A stretch of 64,000 nt of DNA, taken from the NCBI GenBank assembly GCA_902779395.1, contig CACZBK010000003.1:1-64000 (forward strand), written 5' to 3'. Positions 22,304 to 35,705 of this stretch are shown piece by piece (position 1 is the stretch's first letter; the number at the start of each line of letters is the position of its first letter). Position numbers and translations under genes: made by a program. Source of the DNA: an uncultured Lachnospiraceae bacterium (GTDB taxonomy: Bacteria > Bacillota > Clostridia > Lachnospirales > Lachnospiraceae). The notes under the pieces are model-generated. The model made no database searches, was not told the DNA's origin, and saw nothing but the letters and a program-made list of their open reading frames with translations.

Positions 22304-22332
22304 TTGACATAATGCAGGATAAAAGCTACAAT
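22304..22332 (+). promoter_or_regulatory. strong promoter of the zinc locus
   Basis: A perfect -35 TTGACA (22304-22309) and near-perfect -10 TACAAT (22327-22332) are 17 bases apart. The 65-base leader contains a small inverted repeat, CAGG-TATTAATG-CCTG. I do not recognise a standard Zur box, although strong core elements usually imply a repressor. Confidence 0.85.
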
Positions 22333-22403
22333 TTGAGTTTGTTATCGTAAGTACAGCAGGTATTAATGCCTGTGTATGACACTTGGTGTTTACAGTGTTA
22401 TTA

Positions 22404-22724
22404 ATGGAGCGGCTTGTGAACATATACGGGAAAAAACAATATGATAAGCTTGTGCTGATATTGGGAATGATGGCATTGGTTTCAATGCTGTTTTCCGTAT
22501 GCCTTGCATGTGTGGAAACGCATCATGACTGTCAGGGAGAAGATTGTCCTATATGCGCATGCATACATCAATGCCGTGAAAGTCTGAGGGATCTTTCTGC
22601 CGGCCTGATACCGGCCTTCTCCGTTTTTTTTATAGTAACGGCTGTATACGGGATCAATGAGTTCTTTTTGCCTTTCGGTAAAAATGATACGCCGGTGAGC
22701 CTCAAGGTGCGCATGAATGATTGA
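22404..22724 (+). CDS. small Cys/His-rich two-helix membrane protein
   Basis: The 106-residue protein has two membrane helices (about 19-37 and 67-90) joined by a loop packed with metal-ligand residues: CLACVETHHDCQGEDCPICA followed by CIHQC. It holds eight cysteines and three histidines within about 30 residues. It is the first gene after a strong promoter, 55 bases upstream of a zinc-binding lipoprotein gene. I infer a metal-binding or metal-sensing accessory of the zinc importer; no characterised family was recognised. Neither the ATG 22404 nor a TTG at 22383 has a clear ribosome binding site. Confidence 0.65.
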   Translation: MERLVNIYGKKQYDKLVLILGMMALVSMLFSVCLACVETHHDCQGEDCPICACIHQCRESLRDLSAGLIPAFSVFFIVTAVYGINEFFLPFGKNDTPVSLKVRMND

Positions 22725-24530: not shown

Positions 24531-25399
24531 TCGATAAGCTTTTATTGTATCTGCAGATCCCTTTTGTAATATATGCCCTTATAGTCGGCGTGCTGGTCGC
24601 GCTGTGTTCGTCTTTACTGGGGGTGACACTGGTATTAAAGCGATTTTCATACATAGGCGACGGGCTTTCTCATGTAGCGTTCGGGACCATGGCGATCGCA
24701 TCGGCGCTTAAAGTGGCAGCCGAAAACACACCGGTCGCATCTGCGCTTTCAGCTACGGGAGACATGATACTGGTAATGCCGCTCACCATACTGTGTGCGG
24801 TGCTTTTGCTGAAGACAGGTCAGAATACTGCTGTAAAGGGAGACGCAGCCATAGCGATGCTTTCGGTTGGAGCATTGAGTTTCGGATACCTGATCATGAA
24901 TATTTTTCCTACATCGGGTAATCTCAGCGGGGATGTATGTTCCACGCTTTTTGGATCAACATCGATACTGACGCTGCTGCCTGCAGACCTGATAGTATGC
25001 GTAATATTATCGATCATAGTGATCGTGGTATTTGTATTCTTTTATAATAAGATATTTGCAGTGACTTTTGATGAAGATTTTGCGAAAGCGATCGGAACAC
25101 AGGCGGGTGTATATAATCTTATAATAGCCATAGTTACTGCTGTGATAATAGTTCTGGCTATGGATCTGGTAGGTACGTTATTGATATCCGCGCTGGTGAT
25201 CTTTCCGGCTATCTCGGCTATGCGCCTGTTTAAGAGTTACAGGGCTGTGACTGTATGTTCGGTGGTATTATCAGTATTCTGCGCTTTGGCAGGGATCATC
25301 ATATCCATACTTGCCGGTACACCTGTCGGCTCAACAATAGTGGCGGCTGATGTTGCGGCATTCGGGATATGCTGGATCATAGGTAAGTTCAGGAGATGA
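24527..25399 (+). CDS. znuB: zinc ABC transporter permease
   Basis: The 290-residue protein has seven to eight membrane helices and the ABC-3 family features: SLLGVTLVLKRFSYIGDGLSHVAFG near the start and the DLVGTLLISALVIFPAISAM segment near 200. It is the membrane channel partner of the preceding ATPase. Its stop is followed at once by the next gene. Confidence 0.94.
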   Translation: MIDKLLLYLQIPFVIYALIVGVLVALCSSLLGVTLVLKRFSYIGDGLSHVAFGTMAIASALKVAAENTPVASALSATGDMILVMPLTILCAVLLLKTGQNTAVKGDAAIAMLSVGALSFGYLIMNIFPTSGNLSGDVCSTLFGSTSILTLLPADLIVCVILSIIVIVVFVFFYNKIFAVTFDEDFAKAIGTQAGVYNLIIAIVTAVIIVLAMDLVGTLLISALVIFPAISAMRLFKSYRAVTVCSVVLSVFCALAGIIISILAGTPVGSTIVAADVAAFGICWIIGKFRR

Positions 25400-25400
25400 T

Positions 25401-26003
25401 ATGATAATGAAAAGAAAGATATTTATAACCGCTTTGGTTTTTATGACACTTATACCGGCATGTTCGGGTGATAAAGGCACAGCGTCGCGGACCGCCGGAA
25501 ATACTCAGACGGTGAATGATATTCTGGAGCAGGGCCTTGCCGATGCCGGGAAGCAGTCTGTAACCATATCCACACCCGATCCGACATCAACACCTACACC
25601 CATACCCACACCGACGGCTGCGGATACTGAAGAAGAAAAGGAAGAGGAAGAAGTTGTTTTAAGTACTACAGAAGGAATAGATGTAGATCTTACACAGCTT
25701 TCTTCGACACTGGTTTATTCCGAGGTGTATAATATGATGTATATGCCGGAGGATTATATCGGTAAAGTTATAAAAATGGAAGGAGCCTGCTCCTTTTATC
25801 ATGATGATATCACTGGAAATGAATATTATTCCTGTATAATACAGGATGCTACAGCTTGCTGTGCGCAGGGGATCGAATTTGTGCCTGTTAATCCGGAGGT
25901 GGTACCGGGTGAAGGCGGAGATGTCACGGTTGTAGGTGTCTTTGATACATACATGGAAGGTGATTATATGTATTGTACGCTGCGAAATGCTACTGTTCTA
26001 TGA
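25401..26003 (+). CDS. lipoprotein at the end of the zinc importer genes
   Basis: The 200-residue product has a signal peptide with lipobox IPAC and a Thr/Pro linker (TPTPIPTPT). A C-terminal domain of about 100 residues follows, with DYIGKVIKMEGACSFY and YYSCIIQDATACCAQGIEF. It resembles OB-fold-like domains seen beside metal importers, with three cysteines (SC, ACC). Being one base after znuB and lipid-anchored, it probably helps capture or sense the metal outside the membrane. The function is inferred from position only. Confidence 0.7.
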   Translation: MIMKRKIFITALVFMTLIPACSGDKGTASRTAGNTQTVNDILEQGLADAGKQSVTISTPDPTSTPTPIPTPTAADTEEEKEEEEVVLSTTEGIDVDLTQLSSTLVYSEVYNMMYMPEDYIGKVIKMEGACSFYHDDITGNEYYSCIIQDATACCAQGIEFVPVNPEVVPGEGGDVTVVGVFDTYMEGDYMYCTLRNATVL

Positions 26004-26042
26004 TCTGACAAAAAAGCAGCGCAGTTCGTTTGCGGAGGAAAA

Positions 26043-28925
26043 ATGAAAGAGCATAAGCTTCCGAAATACGTCTGGGGAGAGCTCACGTCTCACAACATTA
26101 AGGAAGGGGATGTGCTTTGCACAAGTCCCGTAGATCTGTCTTTTGAATGTGAATATATTTCCGGTTTCGTATTCCTTACAGAAAAAATAATAGGTGCTTA
26201 CACCGAAAAGCTTCCTGCTGATCACATCCGTTATTTCAGGGGGACCAAAACCCAGGACCTGAAGGATGCTGAACAGGGGAGCGATACAGATATACGTCTG
26301 TTTGACATAAAAAAGACGGAGAATGTCCGCCTTGAACGTCATATAGGCTCCAATATCCTGTGCGCCGAATATGACGGTGAAAAGATAGAGATAGCAGCTC
26401 TTACCAATACCAATGCAGAGTCCATGTTCTTTTTTATCAGGCAGTTTAAGAATGTAAAAAAAGGTCTGAGCGTGGATGAGGAGATGATACAAAAGGAAGA
26501 GGAAGAAGAGGAATCTCTGTATTGCCCGATATGCGGTACCATGTATCCCGATCCGGAAAAGAAGCTGTGTCCCAAATGTACCAACAAGCGGACGATCTTC
26601 GGAAGGACATTAAAATATTTCTTCAGATATAAAGCTTCGATCGCATTGTTGTTTTTATGTTATTTGATCTCTTCTGTTATAAGCATTGCATGGCCGTATC
26701 TTTCGGGTAAGATGCTGTATGACCGGGTGCTGGCAAAAGATCCTGAATTTCTTGCCAGGTACGGACTGGGAGGACAGTTTACACTGGCCCTGATCCTGCT
26801 GGTCGTAATGATGTTCGGATGCAGGCTTATCTCACATCTTACAAGTGCTGTTCAGATGGCTGTAATGGCTAAGGTTGCCACATCAACTGTCCGTGATATC
26901 AAGACTGATATCTTTTCCGCGATGAGCAGACTGTCACTTAATTTCTTTACCAGCAAACAGACCGGTGGTCTGATGACACGTGTTGTGAGCGATGCAGATC
27001 GAGTAACTGAATTCTTCATAGATGGTCTTCCTTCCGTATTTATCCAGGGGATGACGATAATCGCAACCTTTGTGGTAATGTACCGCCTGAACTGGCAGAT
27101 GGCTCTTATTGCATGTATACTCCTTCCGCTTCTGGTATTCATGACTGTCAAGCTCCGTCCCGGACTATGGACGCTTTCGGGCAGAAGGCACCGTGCGGAA
27201 AAAGGTGTTACAGGCAAGGCAAACGATAATCTGACAGGGGCACGTGTTGTCAAGGCGTTCGGGCAGCAGGAGGCAGAGATAGAGCGTTTTGAAAGGCCCA
27301 ACAAAAACCTTCGTGAAGCCGAAGTCAATATAGTTAAGCTCAGAAATCAGTTTTCCATTTTATATAATATGGTGCAGGAGGTATCCAGCATCTGGATATG
27401 GATCATAGGAGTATTTTTTGTCCTGAAGACGGAGCAGATGGAACTGGGGGTTTTGCTGACCTTTGTAGGTTATGTGGGGCAGCTGAACGGTCCTATGAAT
27501 TTCTTTTCAAGGGTATTCCGCATGTGGTCGGACAGTATCAATTCCGCGCAGAGGCTTTTTGAGATAATCGATTCCATACCGGATGTTAAAGAGAGTGAGC
27601 ATCCCGTACATATGAAGGCGCCCAGGGGAGAGATCGAACTGGATAACGTGACTTTTGGGTATTCGATCAGCAAACCTGTACTTAAGAATATCACATTAAA
27701 AGTCAGAGAAGGGGAATTGCTGGGGATAGTCGGACGTTCGGGCGCGGGAAAGTCTACACTGGTTAATGTTATCTCAAGACTTTATGATATTCAGGAAGGA
27801 AGCATTAAGATCGACGGAGTTGATGTAAAAGATCTTGCGCTTTCGGATCTTCGTCGTAATGTGGCCATGGTATCCCAGGATACATATATTTTCATGGGAA
27901 GCGTGGCGATGAACATCGCCTATGGAAGAGAAGAAGCTAAAAGGGCGGACATCATACGTGCAGCCAAGATGGCAAGTGCTCATGATTTTATATCAAAAAT
28001 GCCGGATGGTTATGATACGGTAGTCGGAGCCTCGGGAAAGGATCTCTCCGGCGGTGAGAAACAGCGGCTTTCAATTGCAAGGGCAATACTTGCCGATCCT
28101 AAGATACTGATACTTGATGAGGCCACCGCAAGCGTTGATACGGAGACGGAAAAGGCGATCCAGAATTCACTTAAATTCCTTGTAAAAGGGCGAACGACGT
28201 TGTCTATAGCACACAGGCTGTCCACCCTGAGGGATGCCGACAGGCTGATAGTCATAGAAAAGGGACGGATCGCCGAAGAAGGTACGGCAGCAGAACTGGA
28301 TAAGATAGAAGACGGTATTTATCATAAACTGTGCAGGTTACAGGTAAGAAAAAGTGATTGGGACAGAGAGGTGATGGAAATGGTACAGACGGCTGAAAAT
28401 GATATCAACTATTATGAAAAAGAAGCGGAGGAGATGACCAGGCTCTACATGATAACCCCTGAAGATAAGTTTGAACGTACCGAAGGCGGGTTTGTAGATC
28501 TTACCAGCGGGGGCAGGCTTTACAGAAGCGTAAAAGTCGTAAGACTCTTTCCGTTCACGGACGCGGATAAGTATATCTCGATAAGAGAAGGGGATGAGAA
28601 GGCCAGGGAGATAGGTATAATCGAAGATCTGGATTCCATGCCCGAAGAGACGGTAAAGATACTCAGGGAACAGCTGGATCTTAATTATTTCACACCGGTA
28701 ATAAAGAAGATATACAGCATAAAGGATGAATTCGGCTTTGCTTATTTTCATGTGCTCACGGATAAGGGAGAGTGCAAGTTTGCCATAAATATGGCGTCAA
28801 ATGCTGTGACCAAGCTTTCTGATGACAGGCTCATAATAGCAGATCTTGATGAAAACCGTTTTGAGATACGTGACGTAAATGCTCTTACCATGAAGGAACG
28901 CCGTAAACTGGATATGTTCCTGTAG
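26043..28925 (+). CDS. ABC exporter half with zinc ribbon and C-terminal DUF1854
   Basis: The 960-residue protein has five parts. An N-terminal beta-rich domain (about 1-140) resembles a PH/GRAM-like fold. A four-cysteine zinc ribbon has Cys161, 164, 176 and 179 (CPICGTMY...LCPKC). A six-helix exporter domain spans about 190-500. The nucleotide-binding domain has Walker A GRSGAGKST (564-572), signature LSGGE (668-672) and LILDEATASVD. A C-terminal DUF1854 domain spans about 797-960. It starts 39 bases after the zinc lipoprotein and pairs with the next gene as a heterodimer. DUF1854 exporters have been linked to cyanophycin metabolism in some bacteria, but no such gene is here. The substrate is unknown. 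Confidence 0.85.
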   Translation: MKEHKLPKYVWGELTSHNIKEGDVLCTSPVDLSFECEYISGFVFLTEKIIGAYTEKLPADHIRYFRGTKTQDLKDAEQGSDTDIRLFDIKKTENVRLERHIGSNILCAEYDGEKIEIAALTNTNAESMFFFIRQFKNVKKGLSVDEEMIQKEEEEEESLYCPICGTMYPDPEKKLCPKCTNKRTIFGRTLKYFFRYKASIALLFLCYLISSVISIAWPYLSGKMLYDRVLAKDPEFLARYGLGGQFTLALILLVVMMFGCRLISHLTSAVQMAVMAKVATSTVRDIKTDIFSAMSRLSLNFFTSKQTGGLMTRVVSDADRVTEFFIDGLPSVFIQGMTIIATFVVMYRLNWQMALIACILLPLLVFMTVKLRPGLWTLSGRRHRAEKGVTGKANDNLTGARVVKAFGQQEAEIERFERPNKNLREAEVNIVKLRNQFSILYNMVQEVSSIWIWIIGVFFVLKTEQMELGVLLTFVGYVGQLNGPMNFFSRVFRMWSDSINSAQRLFEIIDSIPDVKESEHPVHMKAPRGEIELDNVTFGYSISKPVLKNITLKVREGELLGIVGRSGAGKSTLVNVISRLYDIQEGSIKIDGVDVKDLALSDLRRNVAMVSQDTYIFMGSVAMNIAYGREEAKRADIIRAAKMASAHDFISKMPDGYDTVVGASGKDLSGGEKQRLSIARAILADPKILILDEATASVDTETEKAIQNSLKFLVKGRTTLSIAHRLSTLRDADRLIVIEKGRIAEEGTAAELDKIEDGIYHKLCRLQVRKSDWDREVMEMVQTAENDINYYEKEAEEMTRLYMITPEDKFERTEGGFVDLTSGGRLYRSVKVVRLFPFTDADKYISIREGDEKAREIGIIEDLDSMPEETVKILREQLDLNYFTPVIKKIYSIKDEFGFAYFHVLTDKGECKFAINMASNAVTKLSDDRLIIADLDENRFEIRDVNALTMKERRKLDMFL

Positions 28926-28941
28926 ATCAGGGGAAAACAAA

Positions 28942-31110
28942 ATGATATTAAAATATACCATACCACAAAGAGTAAATGATCTCATCACCCTTAGAGAAGA
29001 TGAGCGGATATACTATGCCGTTCCTTTTGATATAAGCAGGGAGGCGGCATTTACTGATGATTCATATCTTGTGGTCACCACACAGAGAGTGCTCGTTTTC
29101 ACACAGGGGGAGCCCGGCGAAGCTTATGAAATAAAAGATATCAGTGCTGCGAGAGCCGTACCCCGTGTGGGAGGCGGTCTTCTTACCGTTACGTTTAAAG
29201 GAGAGGAAAGGATACTAGTACATTATTCGGCTAAACATCTTAGCCGCTATGCTTATATTGCCAGAGGTATTAATATCCTGGTATCGGGCCGCTTTGAGGA
29301 AGTGGAGAGCAGGGAATATGAGAAGATGTGTCCGATATGCGGCCGTGTCATACCGGGAACGAAGAACTGTCCCAAGTGTTCAAAAGAGGGAGGCTTTATT
29401 AAAGCGTTCACACGCATGGCAAAGCCCTATAAAAAGGATTTCTTCGGGATCTTTATTCTTATGATACTGGCGGCGGTTACCACTCTCTTAAATCCGGAGA
29501 TACAGAAACATCTGATAAATGATGTGCTTAAAGGAAACGGAGGTATGAAAAAGGCTTTAGTCTTTTTAATGATGATGTTTTCTTTGAGTATCGGTATAGT
29601 GATCGTAAATGTGTTGAAGAGCAATGCTTCGGCAAAGCTGGGAGCGAAGATATCTGCGGATCTCAGGTCAAAGCTCTTCAGAAAATACCAGGAGCTGCCT
29701 ATCAGTTTTATAAATGACAGACGTCCGGGTGAACTTTTAAATCGTATAACCAATGATACTATGTATATACGTATGTTTATGGAAGATGTGTTCTGCAATC
29801 TTTTTGCGGTGCTGTTCATCTTTATATGGGATGTGATATTTATGATGGCACTGAACCTGAAGCTTTCGCTGATCACCTTTGCTTTTATTCCTGTAGCAGT
29901 TTTTCTTACGGTAGCCTTCAGAAAGACCGTCAGCAGGATCTTCAGACTGCAGTTTCGAAAAAATGACGATGTGGCGAGTGACCTTCAGGATGTTCTGTCC
30001 GGAATGCGTGTTGTAAAGACATACGGAAAAGAAAAAGAAGAGTCTGAAAAGTTCAAAAGACTTTCTGCCGAATATGCACGTATAAACAGAAGAAATGAAA
30101 CCTTCTGGGCATATTTTTCGCCTTTGCTCCAGCTGGTGATGGGGCTGGGGGTACTGGCAGTGGTCCTGTTCGGCGGTATGGATGTTTTGGGAGATAAGAT
30201 GAGTGCAGGCGAGCTTTATCAGTTTATCACCTATACATCACTTCTGTTCCAGTATATATCATGGATGAACCGTCTGCCGCTCCAGCTGGCACAGCTGTCA
30301 GCGTGTCTGGACCGTGTAAATGACATACTTGGACAGGATGTTGAGAAAGAGGATGAAAGTATCGTACAGGATATGGATATCAAGGGAGAGATAACTTTTG
30401 ATCATGCCACCTTCGGATATAAATCCTATCAGCCTATACTTGAAGATCTTTCCGTTACGGTAAAACCCGGTGAGATGATAGGTATTGTCGGGGCTTCCGG
30501 AGCGGGTAAATCAACACTTATCAATCTGCTTATGGGACTTTATGATGTTGATGACGGAAGGATACTTATAGACGGCCGTGACAAAAAGACGATACGAAGC
30601 AGTTCTTACCATTCACAGATAGGTGTAGTATTGCAGGAGACATTCCTTTTTTCAGGGACCATACTTGACAACATACGTTTTTCAAAACCCGACGCCACTT
30701 ATGAAGAGGTCATAAGGGCAGCAAAGATGGCGAATGCTCACGATTTTATCAGCGACACGCCAAACGGATATAATACCTATGTAGGGGAAAAAGGCTATTC
30801 CTTATCCGGCGGAGAAAGACAGCGTATAGCCATAGCAAGGGCTATACTTACCGATCCAAGGCTTTTGATCCTTGACGAGGCAACCGCAAGCCTGGATACA
30901 GAGAGCGAGTTCATGATACAGAAGGCGCTTAACCGTCTGACCGGTGGAAAGACTACTTTTGCCATAGCGCACAGGCTCTCGACACTTAAGAATGCAGACC
31001 GTATAATGGTCATTGATAAAAGGCATATAGCCGAGATGGGGTCTCATGAGGAGCTCCTGGCGAAAAAAGGAATATATTATAATCTTCAGATGGCTCAGAA
31101 CAGTCATTGA
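28942..31110 (+). CDS. ABC exporter half with zinc ribbon, partner of the preceding gene
   Basis: The 722-residue protein repeats the architecture without DUF1854. An N-terminal beta domain (about 1-120: ERIYYAVPFDISREAAFTDD, VVTTQRVLVF) is followed by a zinc ribbon with Cys130, 133, 143 and 146, and a six-helix domain (about 160-470). The nucleotide-binding domain has GASGAGKST, YSLSGGERQRIAIARAIL, LLILDEATASLD and the IAHRLST switch. All catalytic motifs look intact in both halves. It starts 16 bases after its partner. The N-terminal domain carries a TTQRVL motif of the kind seen in PH-like YdbT/GRAM domains; this is a loose resemblance. Confidence 0.87.
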   Translation: MILKYTIPQRVNDLITLREDERIYYAVPFDISREAAFTDDSYLVVTTQRVLVFTQGEPGEAYEIKDISAARAVPRVGGGLLTVTFKGEERILVHYSAKHLSRYAYIARGINILVSGRFEEVESREYEKMCPICGRVIPGTKNCPKCSKEGGFIKAFTRMAKPYKKDFFGIFILMILAAVTTLLNPEIQKHLINDVLKGNGGMKKALVFLMMMFSLSIGIVIVNVLKSNASAKLGAKISADLRSKLFRKYQELPISFINDRRPGELLNRITNDTMYIRMFMEDVFCNLFAVLFIFIWDVIFMMALNLKLSLITFAFIPVAVFLTVAFRKTVSRIFRLQFRKNDDVASDLQDVLSGMRVVKTYGKEKEESEKFKRLSAEYARINRRNETFWAYFSPLLQLVMGLGVLAVVLFGGMDVLGDKMSAGELYQFITYTSLLFQYISWMNRLPLQLAQLSACLDRVNDILGQDVEKEDESIVQDMDIKGEITFDHATFGYKSYQPILEDLSVTVKPGEMIGIVGASGAGKSTLINLLMGLYDVDDGRILIDGRDKKTIRSSSYHSQIGVVLQETFLFSGTILDNIRFSKPDATYEEVIRAAKMANAHDFISDTPNGYNTYVGEKGYSLSGGERQRIAIARAILTDPRLLILDEATASLDTESEFMIQKALNRLTGGKTTFAIAHRLSTLKNADRIMVIDKRHIAEMGSHEELLAKKGIYYNLQMAQNSH

Positions 31111-31168: not shown

Positions 31169-33199
31169 ATGAAAAAGCAGGATAAAAAAAGTACAAAACC
31201 CATGAAAAGATCCGCGTTCCGAAACGGCAGCGTAGGTCTTATCGTAAATGTTATCCTGACGGCTTTTATAATGGTAGCTGTCTTTATACTTCTGCTGGTT
31301 TCCCGAAGGGATAAAGAAGACAGAGTAGATGTACCGGCTGTCGTAAAGGCAGGTGAAGACGGCTTCGATGACAGCGGAGCATGTAAGTTTAACCAGTTTA
31401 CTTGGTCATCGGACGAAGGGAGAGAAGATCCGGGCAAGCTGGTGGGAGCCCGCCTGGGGAGTGTGATCTCCGTATTCGGAATGAGTGCGGGCAGGGATGT
31501 TGATTCGGTAATAGGATCAAAAGAGATCACTGAGGAATTCGCTCTTTCATCAGGGAGCGGTACTCTGTATGTAACGGCTATAAACGTCTGTGCGGATCCT
31601 GTCAGATTAAACGACTGCTATATCTGTGCGGTAAGGTTTACTCCGGATGCGGGAGTATATGGTCTGGCAAAAAATATGACCTGCGGCATCAGGGAACTGG
31701 GTGAGATACGCAGCTATTATTCCGAACATAATCTGTTTCTGGAGACAGATGCATCACTTCTGTATAAAACGAATGATGAAAACATCAGTTTTACATACGC
31801 GGAAACTGAGTCCGGACGTGTTACCCGGCCGGTATTTCCGGGGATAAATGAAGTGGATGGCATCTTTAGTTTTGAGGATGGTATACTTGACAGTTACCGT
31901 GTGGAGGCACCGGAGCTGCTTTATTACGCTCTGAGAAACAATGTCAGCCAGTATGATCTGGAGCAGATGAGCGCTGCTGAACTTGAAGCCGTAAAAAAAC
32001 AGCGGGATCATTATCTGGATGAGCTTCGGGAAGCCTTTGATGCTGCGGGTGTGGAAGTTGATATCGATGATGAGACCGGCACCATAGCAATGAAGAGTGA
32101 TGTGCTCTTTGATTTTGATTCTTATGTGGTCAGACCGGATTCAAAGGAATATATAAATGACTTTATCAATGCATATGCATCTGTGCTTCTGAGGGATGAT
32201 ATCATCTCGTCCATCCATGCTCTTCGTTTTGAGGGACATACGGATACAAGAGGAACGCATGAATATAATAAGAAGCTGTCGCTAAAACGTGCTCAGAGTG
32301 TGCTGGATTACTGCATTAAGGAAAGCAGTTTAAGTGATGAGCAGCGAAGTGATGTTTCGGCTCTGGCCGAGACTGTGGGTTATTCATATGATTATCCCGT
32401 ATACAGGGATAACGGAACGGTAGATATGGACGCATCCCGTCGTGTGGAGATCAATTTTGTGATAGGGACCAGGTATTCCACATACGGCCCTGACAGGGAG
32501 GAAAGACCGGACGATAAAGAAGGTGATCTTTCCTCAGCTTCGGAAAATGTGCTGAGAGGGGTTAGCTGCAATCCCGATCAGTGGACGGTAGCGGGCCTCA
32601 GCGATACATTTTCGGATGATCCACAAAAGAGGCTGTATGAGCTTTTGAATGCGGATACAATGTGCATACTTGCAGGCCAGAAGACAAGGATCAGCCCCTC
32701 CGGAGACGGACAGATAAAAAGGATGACTCTGTCAGATCCGGGGATAGGAAGGATCTCTTCGGAAAATGATATATATTATTTTGAGGCTAAAAAAGCCGGT
32801 ACGACAAAGGTGGAGGCGAAGATAGAGGGAGGATATACAGACGGCTCCGATCTGAAAGCTTATGTTACCATGCATGTGCTTGAACCATCCGATGATCTTC
32901 CGCTCAAGCTCATACCGGATAAAAGCAGTTTTAAAAGAGGAGATAATGTGAAGTTTTCCGTGAAAGGAGCTTTTGACGGTGATGTGTGGGCCTTTGCATA
33001 TTACACAGGGCTGCGTAACGGAAAGCTTTCATCAGGCGGATATGGGAAGGGAGCAGACTGGATAGATGGGACCACATTATCCATAGATCTGACACAGCCG
33101 GCATCTGCAGCCGATAAGGCTGAGCTTACCGTGATCCTTACTCCGGCATATGATCCGGATACAATACTGGGGTATTACCGTTGTACCGTAAGGAAATAA
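31169..33199 (+). CDS. membrane-anchored OmpA/MotB-domain protein
   Basis: The 676-residue protein has a basic N-terminus, one membrane helix (about 25-45, VILTAFIMVAVFILLL) and a DUF4352-like beta domain (about 85-180). A helical stretch rich in Glu/Lys precedes an OmpA-type peptidoglycan-binding domain (about 305-425: DVLFDFDSYVVRP, LRFEGHTDTRGTHEYNKKLS, RRVEINF). Two Ig-like C-terminal domains follow (about 470-676). The DxxxxNxxLSxxRA peptidoglycan contact pattern is present in variant form (EYNKKLSLKRAQ). It lies 58 bases after the exporter pair. An OmpA domain on the outside of a monoderm membrane is uncommon and suggests a wall-tethering role. Confidence 0.8.
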   Translation: MKKQDKKSTKPMKRSAFRNGSVGLIVNVILTAFIMVAVFILLLVSRRDKEDRVDVPAVVKAGEDGFDDSGACKFNQFTWSSDEGREDPGKLVGARLGSVISVFGMSAGRDVDSVIGSKEITEEFALSSGSGTLYVTAINVCADPVRLNDCYICAVRFTPDAGVYGLAKNMTCGIRELGEIRSYYSEHNLFLETDASLLYKTNDENISFTYAETESGRVTRPVFPGINEVDGIFSFEDGILDSYRVEAPELLYYALRNNVSQYDLEQMSAAELEAVKKQRDHYLDELREAFDAAGVEVDIDDETGTIAMKSDVLFDFDSYVVRPDSKEYINDFINAYASVLLRDDIISSIHALRFEGHTDTRGTHEYNKKLSLKRAQSVLDYCIKESSLSDEQRSDVSALAETVGYSYDYPVYRDNGTVDMDASRRVEINFVIGTRYSTYGPDREERPDDKEGDLSSASENVLRGVSCNPDQWTVAGLSDTFSDDPQKRLYELLNADTMCILAGQKTRISPSGDGQIKRMTLSDPGIGRISSENDIYYFEAKKAGTTKVEAKIEGGYTDGSDLKAYVTMHVLEPSDDLPLKLIPDKSSFKRGDNVKFSVKGAFDGDVWAFAYYTGLRNGKLSSGGYGKGADWIDGTTLSIDLTQPASAADKAELTVILTPAYDPDTILGYYRCTVRK

Positions 33200-34580: not shown

Positions 34581-35705
34581 ATGGGCAGGACTGCGGATAA
34601 TAAAGAACGTGAGAAAGCTATAACCGGGACCAGTATAATAGGCATATTGGCCAATATATTTCTGGCGGCATTTAAGGCCGGAGCCGGGCTGGTGGCGGGG
34701 TCTATAGCCATAGTCCTGGATGCTGTGAATAACCTTACGGACGCATTCAGCTCGGTTATAACCATAATAGGTATCAAACTCGCAAAAAAGAAACCTGATC
34801 AGGATCATCCGTACGGCTACGGAAGGATCGAATATTTCAGCACCATCCTTATATCTCTTATCGTTTTTGCGGCAGGAGCGGCATCGCTTATAGAATCTGT
34901 AAAGAAGATAATCACTCCTACGATGCCGGAATACACGGCAGTAACGGTTATAATAATCGTGGTATCGGTTATCACAAAGCTGATACTGGGACGATTTGTC
35001 AAGGCACAGGGGGTGAAGTATGCATCCGATGCGCTCGTTGCCTCCGGTTCCGATGCAAGCTTTGACGCGATTATTTCAGCTTCTACGCTGGCGGCTGCCG
35101 CAGTTATGTATTTTTTTCACTTCTCGGTTGATGGTATCGTGGGAGCGATAATATCGGTATTTATCGTGAAGGCCGGTCTGGAGATGCTTTTGGATGCTAT
35201 AGGGCATGTGATCGGAAAGCGCCCCGAAAGTGCCATTACCGCTGAGATAAAAAAGACAGTCAATTCAATAGACGGAGTTATAGGTACCTATGATCTTATC
35301 CTTCATAATTACGGACCCGATTCTGCGATCGGGAGTCTTCATATCGAAGTGGATGGCAGCATGAGCGCAACACAGCTTCATGCCCTTACACAGAAGATAC
35401 AGCGCGCTATCCTTGAAGAGTTCCGTATTTTTGTGACTGTAGGTATCTATGCGGTCGATAAGGCAGATGAAGAAAAGGTACTGATGAGGAATAAGCTGGA
35501 AGAGATATCAAAGAAGCATGCCGGTATCGTGAACTGTCACGGGGTTTTTATCGATACCGTGGAGAAGTGGGTGTCTTTTGATGTTACCATGGATTTCAGC
35601 GTATCGGATAAAACGGCTTTGATCGATATGATAAAAAAGGAAGCGGAAGAGGAATATCCGGGGTATTGTATAAATATCAACCCAGATACGGATTATAGTG
35701 ATTGA
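34581..35705 (+). CDS. cation diffusion facilitator family metal exporter
   Basis: The 374-residue protein exports divalent metals in exchange for protons. It has six membrane helices with the expected metal-site residues in LDAVNNLTDAFSSVI (helix 2) and SDASFDAIISAS (helix 5), and the motif KKKPDQDHPYGYGRIEY after helix 2. A cytoplasmic C-terminal domain of about 160 residues, longer than usual, carries HNYGPDSAIGSLHIEVDG and a second alpha/beta repeat ending CININPD. The extended tail could be a second regulatory domain. Zinc, iron or manganese specificity cannot be told from sequence here. Confidence 0.93.
   Translation: MGRTADNKEREKAITGTSIIGILANIFLAAFKAGAGLVAGSIAIVLDAVNNLTDAFSSVITIIGIKLAKKKPDQDHPYGYGRIEYFSTILISLIVFAAGAASLIESVKKIITPTMPEYTAVTVIIIVVSVITKLILGRFVKAQGVKYASDALVASGSDASFDAIISASTLAAAAVMYFFHFSVDGIVGAIISVFIVKAGLEMLLDAIGHVIGKRPESAITAEIKKTVNSIDGVIGTYDLILHNYGPDSAIGSLHIEVDGSMSATQLHALTQKIQRAILEEFRIFVTVGIYAVDKADEEKVLMRNKLEEISKKHAGIVNCHGVFIDTVEKWVSFDVTMDFSVSDKTALIDMIKKEAEEEYPGYCININPDTDYSD

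Follow-up and report, generated by a model that had tools for sequence, protein, structure and literature searches.

A paired ATP-binding cassette exporter with DUF1854 and probably PH-like cytosolic heads in a Lachnospiraceae bacterium, and the conserved module to which it belongs

Heterodimeric exporters of the TM287/288 type are made of two half-transporters and have one degenerate ATP site, and in the PCAT/C39 exporters a cytosolic domain comes before the first membrane helix. TM287/288 and TmrAB are not known to carry cytosolic heads or DUF1854. The locus considered here lies at positions 26,043 to 31,110 of a 64,000-nucleotide stretch from an uncultured Lachnospiraceae bacterium (assembly GCA_902779395.1, contig CACZBK010000003.1), the whole of which is called the window. 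Its two genes, ABC1 and ABC2, each encode ABC_membrane and ABC_tran in one chain, the arrangement of type IV (B-family) ATP-binding cassette (ABC) exporters. The two half-transporters have sequence matches in the PDB to TM_0288 (E 3e-100) and to 5mkk (E 1.1e-94), which a table of PMC8657885 names TmrAB. The locus differs from these heterodimers in that all four ATPase motifs are present in both halves, so that the usual asymmetric pair of ATP sites is not seen. It resembles the PCAT exporters in the cytosolic domain ahead of the first helix, but this domain is probably pleckstrin homology (PH)-like and is followed by a zinc ribbon, and C39 peptidase families are absent among the Pfam matches of the window at E<=1.

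The nearest named family is the exporter that NCBIfam associates with cyanophycin metabolism, whose curated cut-off neither half reaches. NF052233, the cyanophycin metabolism-associated ABC transporter, is the best NCBIfam match of both halves (556 and 518 bits, cut-off 880), and its model of 766 positions covers part of the N-terminal extension, from position 26 in ABC2 and 64 in ABC1. NF052234, the associated DUF1854 protein, is the only NCBIfam match of the DUF1854 part at E<=0.01 (83 bits, cut-off 150). The likeness is that of an exporter core with a DUF1854 partner. The differences, apart from the scores, are that the window has two paralogous exporter genes, that DUF1854 is fused to one of them, and that the genome (G000, 97% complete) has no cyanophycin synthetase over the cut-off.

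The features of the locus are given below, with their basis in brackets.

26043..28925, + strand: ABC1 half-exporter, 960 aa, with a probably PH-like domain, zinc ribbon, transmembrane and nucleotide-binding domains and a fused C-terminal DUF1854 (open reading frame (ORF), Pfam, trees)
26043..26519, + strand: ABC1 N-terminal domain, probably PH-like, about residues 1-159 (profile homology to the ABC2 N-terminus)
26523..26579, + strand: ABC1 ribbon, CxxC-11-CxxC, residues 161-179 (Zn_ribbon_3, E 1.1e-4, below cut-off)
26643..27497, + strand: ABC1 transmembrane domain (ABC_membrane), residues 201-485 (PF00664, E 7e-39)
27681..28130, + strand: ABC1 nucleotide-binding domain core (ABC_tran), residues 547-696 (PF00005, E 2.3e-35; Walker A/B, signature and H-loop intact)
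28521..28919, + strand: DUF1854 fused to ABC1, residues 827-959 (PF08909, E 5.9e-37, or 3.9e-38 in another search)
28942..31110, + strand: ABC2 half-exporter, 722 aa, with a probably PH-like domain and ribbon (ORF, Pfam, trees)
28942..29328, + strand: ABC2 N-terminal domain, probably PH-like, about residues 1-129 (bPH_3, below cut-off)
29329..29379, + strand: ABC2 ribbon, CxxC-9-CxxC, residues 130-146 (kept in related ABC2)

ABC2 follows ABC1 by 16 bases, and its Pfam domains are ABC_membrane at residues 168-437 and ABC_tran at residues 500-649. The ribbon cysteines are CPIC at 161 and CPKC at 176 in ABC1, and CPIC at 130 and CPKC at 143 in ABC2. The presence of DUF1854 in one half, claimed in the original prediction made from the window alone, is confirmed at 126.9 bits against a Pfam cut-off of 26.8, and the predicted model of this segment has a mean pLDDT of 86.3.

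The conserved unit is ABC1-DUF1854-ABC2, of which the window has the fused form. Three sets of loci were compared: the best 80 of 310 relatives from a scan of named genomes (under clostridial names that include Lachnospiraceae, Eubacterium and Roseburia), 28 loci from the family of the window, and 80 loci from other families. The first two sets, and hence their counts, partly overlap (for example L038 and L090; loci, genomes and families carry our own L, G and f numbers). Pooled, they give 147 paired and 41 single-exporter rows; L143, whose contig starts just before DUF1854, is tallied among the pairs, and L073, tallied as a single exporter, is a pair cut by the contig end, which leaves 40 single-exporter loci. 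The order ABC1-DUF1854-ABC2 on one strand is present in 79 of the 80 related loci, the 80th being the cut L143, in 27 of the 28 family loci, and in 41 of the 80 from other families, where the other 39 are simpler, with one exporter gene and DUF1854. In most of the 80 related loci a separate gene between those for ABC1 and ABC2 encodes DUF1854, at a length of about 160-240 aa; the largest gap between ABC1 and DUF1854, about 1.46 kb, is in L106. Fusion to ABC1 is seen in the window and in five of these relatives (L068, L069, L070, L083, and L067, where the ABC1 frame is broken), including all of the first four by identity (L067-L070). There are fusions in two further families as well (L179 and L273 in f119, L265 in f165).

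DUF1854 matches were present in 28/299 genomes sampled from the window's family, 63/391 from the class (62 over the cut-off), 20/398 from the phylum, and 36/72 in the class of G399, with up to four copies per genome. One of 14 control genomes has it, that of the archaeon Sulfolobus acidocaldarius. No DUF1854 relatives were found in a plasmid collection searched with the L043 protein, nor was the term DUF1854 found in the open-access literature searched. These comparisons define the parts and gene order of an exporter module that is widespread in Clostridia and related bacteria, so that DUF1854, a domain of unknown function, can now be studied as a candidate exporter subunit.

In a bootstrapped tree of 44 rows, including 18 ABC1, 18 ABC2 and seven single-exporter rows (a quick tree had 46), the ABC1 rows form one clade (support 100/100) and the ABC2 rows another (99/100), with sub-branches that agree in nearly all groupings. 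The seven single-exporter rows branch outside both clades, partly with weak support. The nearly mirror-image clades indicate an old duplication with the halves inherited together since, and on these trees ABC1 and ABC2 are old paralogues sharing an ancestor with the one-gene exporters that accompany DUF1854. As the genes are adjacent, the halves paralogous and the trees nearly mirror images, the two appear, as far as sequence can show it, to make up a single heterodimeric exporter, driven by ATP and of the MsbA/TM287-288 type, and the earlier view of two genes as two halves of one exporter looks right. Among relatives of at least 600 aa, each ATPase motif is kept in 74 to 77 of 77 ABC1 and in 74 to 76 of 76 ABC2.

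Both halves carry a cytoplasmic domain and a CxxC...CxxC ribbon before the first membrane helix, as had been predicted, and this N-terminal arrangement is indeed unusual for exporters. In a profile comparison the ABC1 and ABC2 N-terminal domains are homologous to each other over 152 columns, ribbon included (99.4% probability). The ABC2 head of the window matches bPH_3, a bacterial PH domain, at E 0.0019 (19.1 bits, cut-off 23), and there are bPH_3 matches at E<=0.01 in 11/52 ABC2 heads and at E<=0.05 in 2/51 ABC1 heads. The heads are therefore probably PH-like, and the 'beta domain' of the original prediction is probably right to that extent, subject to the sub-threshold level of these matches. 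The ribbon has an 11-residue spacer in 73 of 79 ABC1 frames and a constant 9-residue spacer in all 80 ABC2 frames of the 80 related loci, a recurrence that argues against chance. Searched against the PDB, the ABC2 head profile had five matches at E<=1, led by anti-TRAP (E 0.0036), on the ribbon; the DUF1854 profile had a single match, at E 0.84.

Partial rank correlations of divergence, over 500 subsamples, were used to compare the parts. In 35 unfused loci, thinned from 67 by removing fused loci and near-copies, DUF1854 tracks the ABC1 nucleotide-binding domain best (0.52, next 0.17; the largest value in 494/500 subsamples), though the loci of this set had been chosen for the likeness of their DUF1854 to that of the window, a possible source of bias. 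Between the transmembrane domains of the two halves, which served as the control, the correlation is 0.56, and it held at 0.64 in a second, more distant set of 32 loci (38 unfused paired loci, less L191, L262, L305 and L315 with missing parts and two lost in thinning). These two values bear only indirectly on a physical association of the halves.

The reading that we favour, and consider probable, is that ABC1 and ABC2 make up a heterodimeric exporter in which the heads, together with DUF1854, serve as a cytosolic platform for control or loading, with zinc mainly structural in the ribbons. Each half would contribute a cytosolic head, probably a PH-like domain and a structural zinc ribbon, and DUF1854 would be a third, cytosolic and probably regulatory part on the nucleotide-binding side of ABC1. 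The platform may sense a cytosolic signal or recruit the substrate, and would set the ATPase activity of a pump directed outward; zinc would hold the ribbons together rather than gate transport. The pair would derive from an ancestor shared with one-gene, presumably homodimeric, exporters, with the DUF1854 gene fused to ABC1 in the window and the locus lying behind a zinc-uptake unit by chance. Our guess at the substrate, made with low confidence, is a small metabolite or an osmolyte whose export is controlled by a signal.

Several observations weigh against this reading. The preference of DUF1854 for the ABC1 nucleotide-binding domain was not repeated in the second set, where the value is only 0.17 (largest in 36/500 subsamples) and the maximum, 0.26, falls to the head of ABC2, which is encoded right after DUF1854. 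The PH assignment comes from matches below the threshold. The ABC1 ribbon is missing in six of the 79 frames, that is in the truncated L117 and in five relatives (L068, L069, L085, L086, L087), and L068 and L069 share the fused ABC1-DUF1854 form of the window. The called frames of L085 and L087 start after the head, which would mean that the ABC1 head is not always needed. Lastly, among the clustered neighbour genes there is none that recurs across lineages and would name a substrate.

A hint as to the kind of signal comes from the single-exporter relatives. In 15 of the 40 single-exporter loci, spanning seven families including that of the window (L043), a gene matching the DarA profile comes next after DUF1854 on the same strand, 27-106 bases away, and in none of the 147 paired loci is there one after DUF1854. 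L307 ends 54 bases after DUF1854 and is unjudgeable, and L279, with a weaker match 6 kb away on the other strand, is not counted; the 15/40 is a raw frequency of linkage, counted beside these exporters only. Five of these DarA-family cyclic di-AMP (c-di-AMP) receptor genes are listed here; the others are in L043 and nine more loci.

L249:3855-4178: DarA-family c-di-AMP receptor gene
L252:5928-6251: DarA-family c-di-AMP receptor gene
L254:8532-8846: DarA-family c-di-AMP receptor gene
L255:8279-8602: DarA-family c-di-AMP receptor gene
L260:3853-4176: DarA-family c-di-AMP receptor gene

Five of the linked proteins were scanned and, against a cut-off of 27 bits, reach 99-110 on PF06153, the cyclic-di-AMP receptor family. 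The residues given for c-di-AMP binding by LmPstA in PMC4475381, T28, G34, G35, F36, L37, N41, G47 and F99 (H108 was outside the comparison), are identical in 15/15 linked proteins, and in the B-loop kink G95 and A96 are present in all 15, G94 in 13 and T97 in 12. By eye, the linked proteins are unlike the other PF06153 proteins of such genomes in their N-terminal and B-loop stretches; G932, G729 and G981 have no PF06153 match apart from the linked gene. Two changes on the exporter tree account for the linkage, which falls in one clade and so looks like one old association that has been kept rather than many independent gains. This setting differs from that described, as pstA was invariably in an operon with thymidylate kinase in the six species considered in PMC4475381, which also mentions the interaction of GlnK with AmtB. 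No tie of DarA to an ABC exporter was found in the titles and abstract beginnings of the open-access papers listed, subscription papers being mostly outside the search.

In the window, ABC2 and not a PF06153 gene follows DUF1854, and there is no PF06153 match in its genome or, counting it, in 23 of the 28 family genomes with DUF1854. The DarA link would for this reason be only a hint for the exporter family and not the control of the window's own pair. GlnK is a PII-type regulator encoded beside AmtB, the transporter under its control. The PII-like DarA gene directly after exporter and DUF1854 in one single-exporter clade is similarly placed, as that of a candidate regulator; the comparison differs in that the window and the 147 paired rows lack the gene. 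It is conceivable, and we put it forward tentatively, that the PH-headed DUF1854 exporters are signal-gated pumps in which DUF1854 is an adaptor that lets DarA gate some one-gene members by c-di-AMP, while in the pairs ABC2 holds the place of DarA and the heads take over the gating. DarA was a c-di-AMP target protein of unknown function according to a 2021 paper (PMC7900238). If the proposal were true, this receptor without an agreed partner would gain a transport target. The link seen in one clade of the one-gene relatives gives a specific lead on DarA that can be put to the test.

Of the other explanations, a flippase for a lipid or a lipid-linked glycan, rather than an exporter to the medium, is unlikely but fares best. 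MsbA models score 429 and 407 bits on the two halves and, by eye, some downstream neighbours in one subclade resemble glycan-assembly genes, but the MsbA cut-off of 602 bits is not reached, many exporter models score high, and the glycan-like neighbours do not recur in other lineages.

That the pair exports a bacteriocin-like peptide, recruited by the PH-like heads, seems to us decidedly unlikely. PH-domain proteins and an ABC transporter are tied to peptide export in PMC8657885, where export of the leaderless bacteriocin EntDD14 requires DdE and DdF, but these two proteins are there assigned to PHb2, whereas ABC2 resembles bPH_3. The lack of C39 peptidase families among the Pfam matches at E<=1 argues against it too, as does the lack of a neighbour recurring across lineages in a survey of ORFs above 70 to 90 aa, from which a very small peptide gene could escape.

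Membership of the cyanophycin-associated ABC/DUF1854 system, with a role in storage-polymer metabolism, would account for the NCBIfam matches but is very improbable. The scores are well below both cut-offs, and cyanophycin synthetase over the cut-off is missing in all 28 family genomes with DUF1854, including that of the window, and in 54 of 58 other genomes. In the four that have it, it is on a contig other than that of the module in all but one, a single-contig genome where the two are about 0.49 Mb apart. TIGR02068 matches below the cut-off were not counted; those listed from family genomes cover only model positions of about 463-853 and are presumably Mur-ligase kin. The cyanophycin link is thus rejected for this lineage, and the original prediction was sound in its caution that no cyanophycin gene is visible here.

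The original prediction also considered the pair likely to be in a zinc-regulated unit and suggested a metal-gated exporter, or one for a metal chelator or peptide. On this view the pair would be part of the zinc operon and its ribbons would sense zinc, or it would export a zinc chelator. The genes that bear on this are as follows.

22383-22724: small ORF, 113 aa, first of the zinc unit (no Pfam match over cut-off)
25401..26003, + strand: lipoprotein gene of the neighbouring zinc-uptake unit, outside the conserved exporter module (zinc-gene context in other loci)
31169-33199: OmpA-domain protein, 676 aa, after ABC2 (OmpA, E 1.9e-10)
34581-35705: cation-efflux protein gene, 3.5 kb 3' of the pair (Pfam)

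The gap of 39 bases between the lipoprotein gene and ABC1 was given correctly, Znu genes lie upstream, and no terminator-like site was found on the + strand from 25025 to 29167. With the cation-efflux gene downstream, the pair in the window is flanked by genes for metal uptake and efflux, and cation-efflux homologues are present a few kb from the pair in L045 and L139. There is a promoter-like site with 11/12 matches before the zinc unit (22304-22332) and a second, also 11/12, inside the lipoprotein gene (25704-25733); the 25 such sites in the region are not above chance expectation (20.2, sd 4.2). Zur and AdcR box patterns match nowhere in the zinc unit and are no commoner in the window than expected by chance, a result that leaves room for zinc-dependent transcription.

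The survey of neighbours that had been proposed as a check went against the zinc context as a conserved link. Homologues of the Znu genes and lipoprotein adjoin the pair in two of the 80 related loci, L067 and L070, both near relatives with the same synteny; in 14 loci of this set the ABC1 start is missing or is preceded by under 2 kb of sequence, which makes about 2/66 the fair base. In the 28 family loci there is no ZnuA, ZnuB or lipoprotein gene beside the pair (L058 and L059 being short contigs). Conversely, the zinc lipoprotein is found in 59/299 family genomes, and in the 30 best lipoprotein loci, examined over about 1.5 kb per side for ZnuA or ZnuB in any strand or order, ZnuB is present in 26 and ZnuA in two more. 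With Znu genes in 28/30 of its loci the lipoprotein 5' of ABC1 belongs to the zinc unit, while the exporter pair is present only in the window's own. With Znu neighbours confined to L067 and L070 among the related pairs, and the pair present in one of 30 lipoprotein loci, its place behind the zinc unit was most likely acquired in the lineage of the window alone. What stands of the earlier proposal is that unit and pair may share a transcript in this lineage, as in the window itself the + strand has no terminator-like site between them; as a general explanation the zinc-regulated unit is rejected. Gating by metal also fits poorly with the five relatives without an ABC1 ribbon, two of them of the window's fused form, although that of ABC2 is kept in 80/80. 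A zinc-gated or chelator exporter is accordingly the least probable of the explanations, and we set it aside.

Other neighbour genes were considered as clues to the substrate and rejected, as none recurs across lineages. A protein of about 615 aa is encoded directly 5' of ABC1 in six family loci (L054, L060, L061, L062, L063, L064); that of L060, which was scanned, is BT_1020-like (beta propeller), and SH3/NlpC-type genes are present near five of these six and near L052, with other enzyme genes nearby. A UvrD-type helicase gene (that of L185 was scanned) is directly upstream of the module in L184, L185, L186 and L188, from one other family. In L185, L186 and L188 the helicase gene comes after an iron-alcohol-dehydrogenase-like gene, and L185 has an F420 gamma-glutamyl-ligase-like gene ahead of it as well. 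In L068 and L069 there is a GTPase gene upstream of the pair, which we take to be HflX-like. The 113-aa ORF of the zinc unit is kept in L067 and L070. The OmpA-domain gene begins 58 bases after ABC2 in the window, and in L067 and L070 the pair is likewise followed by relatives of this gene, with an aldo/keto reductase gene (that of L067 was scanned) in between.

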